Below are positions 5,984-8,327 of a stretch of 64,000 nucleotides of DNA, one piece after another. The stretch spans positions 707,501 through 771,500 of the forward strand of contig NZ_CP042467.1 of assembly GCF_007993755.1 (NCBI RefSeq), read 5' to 3'. The notes under the pieces are model-generated. The model was given only the letters and a program-made list of their open reading frames with translations, was not told the DNA's origin and did not search any database. This DNA comes from Microvenator marinus. GTDB lineage: Bacteria; Myxococcota_A; Bradymonadia; Bradymonadales; Bradymonadaceae. The first letter of the stretch is position 1. Each line of letters starts with the position of its first letter. The position numbers and the translations under genes were made by a program.

Positions 5984-6853
5984 TTAGCGGGGTTTTAGCA
6001 GTAGTGCGATGCTCACGCCAATCAAAGTCAGACCACAACCGAGGAACACCATGGTTCCCGGCCGCTCTTCTAGGAGCACCCACGCCAAAATACTAGATGC
6101 AACGGGTTCGATAAGCGTTGCCAGTCCAACGATGGTGGGAGTCGTGTAGCGCAGAACCCACGTGATGACTGAATGTCCGATGATTTGAGGAACCAGGGCC
6201 GCCATGAGTATGAAAAACGCAGCGGTCGGACTTGGCGGAACAATCGACTGCCCTAAAAAAATAGCGGTCGAGAGGAGCCAAATGGATGCCAGACCAGCAG
6301 TTGCCGAGCCAAACGCGAGAACATCGATAGCGCCGAGTCTTCTTACCGTTAACATGTATCCTGCCATCGCCACGGCGCCGAGGAGTGCCAATGCGTTTCC
6401 GAGGAGCGTGCTTCCTTCGAAGTCGGCCCCTGAAACGATGAAAACACCGAGCGAGGAGACTGCAATGGCCAACCAAATTCCTCCGGTGGGAGCGTCTTGC
6501 CTCCGAACGACTCCCCAAAGGGCGAGCATTAGCGGCGTTGCGGTAACCAGTGAGACTGAGGCAGCAACGGTTGTGAGATCCAATGACCAAACCCATGCCC
6601 CAAAATGCACGGCGTAGAAGATGCTCGCGACCACAGCAGCCTTCATCACACTCAGCGACAACGTGCGTCGTTTTAGAGCCCGCAGGAGCCACGGCGAGAG
6701 GAGCACGCTAGCTATTGCCAGCCTGAGTCCCGACGCGACGAGTGGATGGGTTGGAGAAGCAAGTTTGAAAAAGATTGCGGCAAACGCAATGGCCAACATG
6801 CCGATGAAAAGCGTAAAAGGAACTCTTAGGTCTGAGAGGCTTTTGGTTGGCAT
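5984..6853 (-). CDS. EamA/DMT-family transporter
   Basis: The 289-residue product is almost entirely hydrophobic, with about ten membrane helices arranged as two five-helix EamA halves, the usual size of drug/metabolite exporters (RhaT/YdcZ/EamA group). The second half contains the typical PQIIGHSVITWVLRYTTPTIVGLATLIEPV stretch in shortened form. The substrate is unknown; characterised relatives export amino acids or other metabolites. The start is notable. The ATG at 6853 has no purine-rich ribosome site upstream and follows, after only a few bases, a T-run and strong hairpin that look like a terminator. This suggests expression controlled by read-through from a structured leader, or a leaderless transcript. 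Confidence 0.88.
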   Translation of the reverse strand: MPTKSLSDLRVPFTLFIGMLAIAFAAIFFKLASPTHPLVASGLRLAIASVLLSPWLLRALKRRTLSLSVMKAAVVASIFYAVHFGAWVWSLDLTTVAASVSLVTATPLMLALWGVVRRQDAPTGGIWLAIAVSSLGVFIVSGADFEGSTLLGNALALLGAVAMAGYMLTVRRLGAIDVLAFGSATAGLASIWLLSTAIFLGQSIVPPSPTAAFFILMAALVPQIIGHSVITWVLRYTTPTIVGLATLIEPVASSILAWVLLEERPGTMVFLGCGLTLIGVSIALLLKPR

Positions 6854-6858
6854 TTAGG

Positions 6859-6924
6859 CAAAAAAAAGCGCCGCGTGGCGACTTGAGGGTCTATGACCGT
6901 CCGACTGAGCGGTACCACGCGGCG
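6859..6924 (-). terminator. Rho-independent terminator-like hairpin before the EamA start
   Basis: On the minus strand CGCCGCGTGG (6924-6915) pairs perfectly with CCACGCGGCG (6878-6869); the 36-base loop can fold further, and the stem is followed by C and eight T. The T-run ends about six bases before the exporter ATG. It could end a small RNA or act as an attenuator. Confidence 0.6.
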
Positions 6925-7027
6925 TCGATAGTGTCTGGGATTTCCTCAGTGAATGCGGTTCGACCGCAAAGCACCGTCGCTATTTCTTTGCCTCATGGGC
7001 AGCCCTCAAGCGCATTGGGCGGTGATT

Positions 7028-7090
7028 TTACGGGCGAACTCCACTGTGGGACACCATCTTTCCAGTCGGACAACTACAATCACTTTTCAC
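7028..7090 (-). CDS. Putative 20-residue leader peptide with a near-complete Shine-Dalgarno sequence
   Basis: A GTG at 7090-7088 opens a 20-codon frame ending TAA 7030-7028, reading (M)KSDCSCPTGKMVSHSGVRP. Seven bases before the GTG is GGAGG, and the whole stretch 7105-7090 is complementary over 16 bases to the conserved 3' end of 16S rRNA. Such an extended match cannot reasonably be chance, so translation initiation here is plausible. The peptide has two Cys codons two apart (CSC). It lies inside the leader ahead of the EamA exporter and may be a regulatory leader peptide rather than a functional protein. The same frame stays open upstream to 7237, but without comparable start signals. Confidence 0.4.
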   Translation of the reverse strand: MKSDCSCPTGKMVSHSGVRP

Positions 7091-7205
7091 TGGATCACCT
7101 CCTTTTGCGGCAGTCAGGTTGCGCGGTTCCCAACCGCATGAACTCGACAACGTGCCGTGCATCTCGAGTCCAGTCGCTGGCCTCAGCCATTCTCGCGACT
7201 CTGAT

Positions 7206-7234
7206 ATGATGACGAGTTCGCAACATTGGTTCAA
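7206..7234 (-). promoter_or_regulatory. Possible sigma-70 promoter for the 6854-7200 leader
   Basis: On the minus strand TTGAAC (7234-7229) and CATCAT (7211-7206) are separated by 17 bases; each matches the -35 or -10 consensus at four of six positions. Transcription would begin near 7200. The match is weak. Confidence 0.25.
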
Positions 7235-7319
7235 CAAAAAAGTGCCCCGAATCCAGAATCTTTTTCTAAGTCTAAAGTTCTAGTTGGAAGACGGCCCTGC
7301 GAACATTAGACTTCGAGTA

Positions 7320-7709
7320 ATGATGTACACAAAAACCCTCCTAATTTTCGGCGTACTGGCGCTCATGGCCGCGGGCTGCAAGACCACGGTGAGCTCCTCA
7401 AAGTCATCAAAGAACATCGAACTTCTTTCCCAGTCCGACCTTGGCGGTGAGAAAGCCCGACATTGCAATAAGGTCGGCTCGTTTGAAGTCGCGAAGCACG
7501 AAAGCGAAGTCACGGAGACGAAGCAAAGTGTGCTCGAGATCAAAGCACGCAATCAAGCCGCCCGGATGGACGCGACCCATGTTTTGGTTTGGCCCGCTGC
7601 GACCTACACCTGCAACAAGGCTCTCGAAGAGGTCGAAGGTGAGGCCGACCAGTGCGAGCGCTCCAGCGTAGATGCGTACACATGTGTGATTGGCCGGCGA
7701 GCGTTCTAG
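7320..7709 (+). CDS. Lipoprotein, DUF4156-like
   Basis: The ATG at 7320 (or the adjacent one at 7323) starts a lipoprotein signal peptide, MYTKTLLIFGVLALMAAGCK, with lipobox LMAAGC, so the mature protein of about 110 residues should be lipid-anchored. An upstream in-frame start at 7284 would add 12 residues before the signal and is less likely. The central part, EIKARNQAARMDATHVLV, fits the short DUF4156 lipoproteins, whose members share an 'R(N)xAAxxGA' helix followed by a strand; their function is unknown. Three further cysteines near the C-terminus could form disulfides. The gene ends one base before the convergent Imm21-like gene. Confidence 0.7.
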   Translation: MMYTKTLLIFGVLALMAAGCKTTVSSSKSSKNIELLSQSDLGGEKARHCNKVGSFEVAKHESEVTETKQSVLEIKARNQAARMDATHVLVWPAATYTCNKALEEVEGEADQCERSSVDAYTCVIGRRAF

Positions 7710-7710
7710 T

Positions 7711-8235
7711 CTACTGAATAAGTTGAATGCGGTGGACGAGAAGGCACGTATCATCGTCAGGCTGAACGTTTGCCGACAAGATCGCGTACTCTCCTCCTAC
7801 GAGGAACATGGGAATCTCATCGACAAGCCGAGAAGCATCTTGCTTGGCCTCGAAGAGCATCATGGCCCCGTCTAGCACGTTCAAAGTGAAAGATTCTGGC
7901 TCGTAGGAGTCCAAGGGGATACTTCTGAGCGCCTCGACCACAGTCTCCGAGCTCTTAGCCCAAAGCCAGCGTACAATCAGCCCACCTGTATGCCTGCCAC
8001 GGCTGCCAAGAAGTTCGGGCAATGGCCACCATGCCGTATGGAAACCGTCTTCAAGAACGAGTCCCTGCCCTCTTCCGACCGAAATCGGGAAAATCGGCTC
8101 ATGTCCTTCGCTCGCCCGGCGGTAGCCAGGATCGGACGCCCCTTTCCAATGTCTAGACAACGCCCGTGGCAACATGAGAATTGGGCTTGATGGGCTATAG
8201 ACCCACTTGATTTCGGACGAGTTTTGGAGGTTCAT
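7711..8235 (-). CDS. Imm21-like immunity family protein
   Basis: The pattern KWVYSPSSPILMLPRALSRHW, then a YRRA segment, SVGRGQGLVLEDGFHTAWWP, follows the layout I know for Imm21 proteins (W..S.GGP...LP, DY.RAC, G.G.ALVL.DEP). Imm21 members are immunity proteins found next to polymorphic toxins. No toxin gene is visible nearby, so this may be an orphan or a housekeeping relative. ATG 8235 has GAGG seven bases upstream and is preferred; GTG 8265 in the same frame would add ten residues. The flanking genes are a lipoprotein and, divergently, the ligase operon. Confidence 0.6.
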   Translation of the reverse strand: MNLQNSSEIKWVYSPSSPILMLPRALSRHWKGASDPGYRRASEGHEPIFPISVGRGQGLVLEDGFHTAWWPLPELLGSRGRHTGGLIVRWLWAKSSETVVEALRSIPLDSYEPESFTLNVLDGAMMLFEAKQDASRLVDEIPMFLVGGEYAILSANVQPDDDTCLLVHRIQLIQ

Positions 8236-8327
8236 CGAGGGCCTCGGATTGAAGGAACCGAACACGCGATAGGGTTCATCTAGGCAACCTTCCGAGTTGG
8301 CGATTTCATTCCCCGTCGGCGTTGGTA

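Follow-up and report, generated by a model that had tools for sequence, protein, structure and literature searches.

An extended Shine-Dalgarno sequence in a conserved structured RNA of Microvenator marinus that is most likely a distant relative of Ms_IGR-5 and appears to encode a short peptide

Dual-function small RNAs such as RNAIII and SgrS combine a structured RNA with a short ORF, as the RNA reported here may do. In Actinobacteria, the family Ms_IGR-5 (RF02471) is described by Rfam as an sRNA. It is listed as a transcript in Streptomyces lividans and S. avermitilis in two reports (PMC8079986, PMC8780764), and a third found Ribo-seq reads on the M. abscessus and M. smegmatis homologues, with a warning from its authors that classical non-coding RNAs give footprints too (PMC4974804). 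The open-licence literature that we searched yielded no description of an ORF, a long-range helix or a function for Ms_IGR-5. For Staphylococcus aureus, one study describes longer helices between the Shine-Dalgarno (SD) and anti-SD sequences that assist weak start codons (PMC13009471); those helices form on the mRNAs of ordinary genes, whereas the pairing described here extends to up to the whole 16S tail and belongs to a small structured RNA. The Caulobacter sRNA CC2171 (RF01867) contains the identical stretch AAAGGAGGUGAUCCAGUG in its consensus, but was not accepted as a homologue: the matches do not exceed chance (22.3 bits against a cut-off of 75), they depend on this shared stretch, and no E-V motif was seen.

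We analysed a stretch of 64,000 nucleotides of the Microvenator marinus genome (the window). An earlier note on this DNA had pointed to a 16-base exact complement of the 16S rRNA 3′ end, far beyond chance, placed at good spacing before a GTG with a 20-codon frame, and comparison with the organism's own 16S gene bears this out. Positions 7090-7105 read CTGGATCACCTCCTTT on the plus strand and AAAGGAGGTGATCCAG on the minus strand; the 16S gene of this genome (L002) terminates in ...CCTGCGGCTGGATCACCTCCTTTACGG, to whose end minus-strand 7105-7090 is the exact complement, with all 16 bases pairing. The 14-base core GGATCACCTCCTTT has exactly two copies in the 5.85 Mb genome, this site and the 16S gene, and the next best matches to it within the window have 3 mismatches of 14, with nothing closer (within 2). 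By our own arithmetic, about 3e-5 exact matches to a 16-mer are expected in 64 kb on both strands. The TG that follows the 16-mer completes the GTG (7090-7088) of a frame that ends in TAA at 7028, and the SD spacing is normal, the 7 nt TGATCCA separating GGAGG from GTG. With only 20 codons, and 13-24 in relatives, the frame is not that of an ordinary protein gene. A fragment or relic of 16S rRNA was rejected, the similarity to 16S being confined to the complement of its tail and lying on the opposite strand. No tRNA, tmRNA or Rfam family matched in the window; a tmRNA was rejected in view of the lack of any match there with RF00023 and ARAGORN, and the genuine tmRNA of the genome lies elsewhere (C1:1560831-1561221, 175.6 bits).

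The site belongs to a conserved structured RNA some 340 nt long, which the earlier note had missed. An alignment of 16 elements comprises upstream hairpins, the SD and the frame, then a variable 3′ domain, and last a GC-rich terminator and its T run, and the parts that stay constant across homologues are the long SD, a GTG or TTG start, a frame of 13-24 codons and a long-range helix that uses its last codons. The 5′ end of the RNA is an estimate from promoter-like boxes, not a mapped position: relatives have TATAGT, TATACT or a similar box at a constant matching place, and a strict promoter scan accepted no promoter in the window, TTGAAC-17-CATCAT included. The minus strand carries the terminator, the promoter-like boxes of the relatives, the covarying helices and the frame alike, and so only part of the earlier reading is supported: the strong translation start is, and the proposed anti-SD mimic on the plus strand is not.

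Table. Elements of the RNA locus, with positions counted in the window
Element	Positions	Strand	Basis
Whole conserved RNA, from estimated start to end of T run	6860..7200	minus	BLAST to relatives, alignment, covariance model searches
Candidate promoter TTGAAC (7234-7229), 17 nt, CATCAT (7211-7206)	7206..7234	minus	by eye
PK1 5′ strand CGGCA, loop of upstream hairpin	7153..7157	minus	permutation test weak
PK1 3′ strand TGCCG, immediately 5′ of SD	7108..7112	minus	permutation test weak
Extended Shine-Dalgarno, 16-base complement of the 16S tail	7090..7105	minus	genome and 16S comparison
Micro-ORF: GTG, 20 codons, TAA; MKSDCSCPTGKMVSHSGVRP	7028..7090	minus	start, frame and stop conserved in relatives
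Helix B 5′ strand GATGGTGTC, within micro-ORF	7050..7058	minus	RNAalifold, own-versus-cross test, single-sequence fold
Helix B 3′ strand GACACTATC	6927..6935	minus	RNAalifold, own-versus-cross test, single-sequence fold
PK2 (kissing/pseudoknot) 5′ element CTTGAGGG, in 3′ domain	7003..7010	minus	permutation test
PK2 3′ element CCCTCAAG, inside terminator hairpin	6882..6889	minus	permutation test
Intrinsic terminator: GC-rich stem and inner hairpin, then 8 T	6860..6924	minus	RNAalifold, fold z-score -3.05

The RNA is widespread but patchy at the search sensitivity used. BLAST of positions 6854-7320 against 39 relatives gave a match in 14, and the comparison of homologous regions that the earlier note had proposed found the element kept in close relatives, not absent from them. 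The sequence GGAGGTGATCCAGTG is present in the 13 homologous loci compared, the window's included, and the pattern AGGAGGTGATCCAGTG occurs in 17 of 57 genomes of the class, as a single copy in each. Model R1 (E<=0.1) found the element in 31 of the 57 class genomes and in 19 of the 21 of the family; model R2 (E<=0.01) found it in 115 of 377 genomes of the phylum, nearly always as a single copy, with no match at this threshold in the other 262. The element is also present in 4 of 148 genomes from the phylum to which a Binatia genome belongs, and three of these four have the micro-ORF. Furthermore, a pattern scan of the named collection gave 47 stretches, mainly in Myxococcota and ‘Deltaproteobacteria’ assemblies, a count from which gene-internal matches (L138, L139, L151, L157, L174) had been dropped beforehand as chance.

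At least 12 contiguous pairs with the 16S tail (G-U counted) are found in 67 of 77 elements, and all 16 in 33. These 77 are the elements with 15-nt spacing among 84 selected for an ORF and required to contain GGAGGT or GGGGGT, which makes the conservation of the core partly a matter of construction. Outer pairing bases vary in many lineages, and departures are turned into G-U pairs in 18 of 23 cases at position -3 and in 19 of 31 at -1. The predicted duplex has -30.9 kcal/mol, compared to -12.2 for an ordinary SD devised for the comparison. This 16S duplex includes the start codon's first base, and by our reasoning its outermost pairs therefore have to open before initiation can occur. The aid that extended SD helices give to weak starts in S. 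aureus fits the bias for GTG and TTG here. With start codon, frame and stop kept in relatives along with the long 16S pairing, the ‘extremely strong translation start’ of the earlier note is supported.

Judging from comparison among relatives, the micro-ORF appears to be translated into a peptide of 13-24 amino acids in many Myxococcota and, as a related version that has long been classed as non-coding, in Actinobacteria. The set for the frame test joined 28 loci from 31 class genomes with 40 new loci from 115 phylum genomes, giving 67 distinct elements; it omitted L084 and L085 (near copies of L082/L083) and G048, which was then without a locus and entered later. The script anchored 64 of the 67, and the frames of the other three (L108, L127, L131) are present in the 84-element set, whose stop counts are no evidence given its selection for an ORF. 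The first stop falls at codon 12-24 in frame 0 of all 64 anchored elements, compared to 7 in frame +1 and 1 in frame +2, and these two other frames stop earlier than codon 12 in 43 and 61 of the 64. The start codon is GTG in 52 elements, TTG in 11 and ATG in one. Where Glu-Val is present, the stop stands exactly five codons past Glu in 49 of 52 elements (TAG 27, TGA 20, TAA 2), never replaced by TGG, and the search model extends no further than these stops. The resulting motif x-E-V-[VAT]-x-x-stop occurs in both Myxococcota and Actinobacteria. The window's own frame differs, with K-M-V and 20 codons, most relatives having 14. One element (L094), with a frame of 24 codons, has an insertion 5′ of the T-G-E-V motif and keeps the reading frame.

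Selection at the level of the peptide received no support from a simple synonymous test, in which synonymous changes were not enriched in frame (0.236, compared to 0.254 and 0.265), and translation itself may therefore matter more than the peptide. The codon before Glu is nearly fixed in its third base, and variation in the first gives Ser, Cys, Arg or Gly; the residues that are conserved have their codons in helix B and GTGAGGTG. Part of the amino-acid conservation is a consequence of helix B and of the GTGAGGTG motif; we infer that the peptide motif may largely be a shadow of RNA constraints, with the act of translation being the selected trait.

RNAalifold predicts that helix B joins the last codons of the frame to the segment directly 5′ of the terminator, and one of its pairs occurs as five types (G-C, G-U, C-G, A-U and U-A). 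None of 5000 permutations reached the observed own-strand pairing of helix B in 16 sequences, and the same result (0 of 5000) was obtained for PK2, a kissing contact of the 3′ domain with the terminator hairpin; PK1, located before the SD, was not significant (550 of 5000). G050 was left out of the 16-element alignment and these permutation tests, and G016 out of one further analysis. Phylum-wide, 270 of 300 variable-site pairs of helix B form, compared to a mean of 234.1 among permutations (sd 3.2, maximum 249), with the partner chosen by position and context only; 75 of the 84 elements had such a partner and nine did not. This context-picked test replaced a longest-complement search that was dropped as too permissive, shuffles being equally good. 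Collectively, these tests point to strong covariation in helix B. The terminator folds better than all of 200 shuffles (z -3.05), and the whole RNA is only slightly better folded than shuffles (z -1.42).

Sublineages have different flanking genes, and in six genomes (G002, G008, G013, G016, G018, G020) the nearest following gene that relatives also have is convergent, which argues that the RNA is a gene of its own. An EamA (PF00892) gene lies downstream only in the window's genome and, as an EamA-like gene, in G004. Its ATG stands here 6 nt past the T run of the terminator with no SD of its own (6851-6867, minus strand), and the layout in G004 is similar; the gene may be leaderless, may start later or may depend on read-through. 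Near 19 of 85 loci there is a PurU-like gene, which we take to be a formyltetrahydrofolate deformylase; it is divergent in 16 and downstream on the same strand in 3, and belongs to one Myxococcota subgroup outside the window's family (L092, L096-L098, L100, L102, L105, L108, L109, L114 and others). Formyl groups feed the initiator tRNA, and a link of this neighbour to initiation is conceivable; as a general feature it was rejected, the gene being found in one subgroup only and mostly divergent. The gene at 7711-8265 of the window (minus strand) has a marginal match to the Imm21 immunity protein (PF15589, 30.9 bits, cut-off 30.7).

Comparison with known families suggests that the window RNA is most likely a distant relative of Ms_IGR-5. 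Like the Myxococcota RNA, Ms_IGR-5 has an SD, a micro-ORF ending in E-V-x-x-x-stop, a helix of the GGTGGC:GYYACC type and a terminator; the Rfam structure line, however, is without helix B. RF02471 gave no match in the window even at E<=10, and its 19 matches at E<=0.1 in the 377 phylum genomes (best 37.9 bits) all stay below its gathering cut-off (45 bits), which is reached in none of these genomes. Eleven of these 19 places coincide, on the same strand, with those of the independently built R2 model, and sub-threshold matches are in register at L099 (36.8 bits), L028 (33.4) and L110 (29.1). Among 119 actinobacterial genomes, 27 have RF02471 at E<=0.001, and 17 of these 27 loci show the SD, a start and a short frame ending in E-V-x-x-x-stop by our own rule, a criterion noticed here and not one of Rfam's; the other ten lack this combination. 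An eight-pair helix B is also present in the first eight of the 17 (for example GGTGGCTA with TAGCCACC in L222), found by a best-of-many search that was not blind. In the opposite direction, R2 gave 14 weak matches (E<=0.1) in 198 actinobacterial genomes, of which that in G386 alone overlaps an RF02471 place, and it missed the Actinomadura element.

We consider it probable that the 16-mer is the extended SD of a free-standing structured RNA that is related to Ms_IGR-5, has a translated micro-ORF and folds under the control of translation; such an RNA would most likely be a structured mini-mRNA or a dual-function RNA. Comparative evidence supports the RNA gene, helix B, PK2, the conservation of start, frame and stop, and the extended 16S pairing. 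By pairing with almost all of the single-stranded 16S tail, the RNA would load 30S subunits on the weak GTG or TTG start, and the ribosome would then translate the micro-ORF, terminating in most relatives five codons past the fixed Glu. As the 5′ strand of helix B would consist of the last codons, with the partner segment just before the terminator, a ribosome reading through this strand and stopping at a fixed place would make translation and helix B mutually exclusive, so that the fold may report, or be set by, initiation. Beyond this evidence, we infer that this organism translates the frame and that translation gates the fold, along with any effect further downstream.

The conserved start, frame and stop, with a peptide motif shared by Myxococcota and Actinobacteria, would also be expected of a plain mini-mRNA, the product of which is the 13-24-residue peptide and the structure of which only tunes expression or stability. 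Such a message does not fit the lack of a synonymous excess, the variable first and almost fixed third base of the codon before Glu, or the coincidence of conserved residues with the coding of helix B and GTGAGGTG, and we regard it as unlikely. Pairing that extends to the start codon, more than an SD needs, the strength of the predicted duplex and a G-U drift that preserves pairing would suit an RNA that captures or shields 16S 3′ ends (by sequestration, hibernation or tail protection), with translation being secondary. This would leave the conservation of stop and frame unexplained, and the variable outer bases in many lineages and the single-copy gene also argue against it, making it improbable.

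A base-pairing sRNA that acts in trans and carries an incidental ORF would agree with the free-standing, terminated gene and with the detection of Ms_IGR-5 homologues as Streptomyces sRNA transcripts (PMC8079986, PMC8780764). Start and stop are, however, conserved too exactly for an incidental ORF, and we recognised no unpaired conserved seed besides the SD; we give this explanation little credence. The micro-ORF, the competing structure and the terminator are also attenuator-like, and the position of the EamA gene just past the T run, here and in G004, would suit a leader-peptide attenuator of this transporter. Synteny is not kept, though: we found no conserved downstream gene in the same transcript, the next shared gene is convergent in six genomes and the PurU-like neighbour is mostly divergent, and an EamA attenuator was rejected as very improbable.

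The translation-gated RNA that we favour has its own points against it: the peptide sequence may not be selected given the synonymous test, most phylum genomes gave no match, the whole-RNA fold and PK1 are weak, the start codon has its first base inside the full duplex, the element directly precedes the EamA gene here, and Ribo-seq footprints also come from classical non-coding RNAs, as the authors of that study warn (PMC4974804). More tentatively, and on balance we doubt it, the RNA might belong to an old and widespread class (Myxococcota, the phylum of the Binatia genome, Actinobacteria) that measures initiation capacity by presenting a complement to almost all of the 16S tail together with a weak start codon, in which the passage of a ribosome through about 14 codons would decide whether helix B closes, the peptide would be a by-product and Ms_IGR-5 would be one branch.

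What looked like an isolated curiosity becomes a conserved RNA, with comparison among genomes arguing for its translation, linked to an orphan actinobacterial sRNA family whose micro-ORF and long-range helix are undescribed in the open-licence literature searched. It offers a natural and testable case of 16S-tail pairing far beyond the usual SD combined with weak start codons, and relatives exist in laboratory actinomycetes, where function can be tested. As for single loci, L141, from an assembly titled Gemmatimonadota, has a Myxococcota-type element, and the assembly is probably mislabelled or mixed. CC2171, which has matches at L034:175-361 (minus strand) and L025:1496-1572, is perhaps an independent instance in which an extended SD precedes a GTG micro-ORF.
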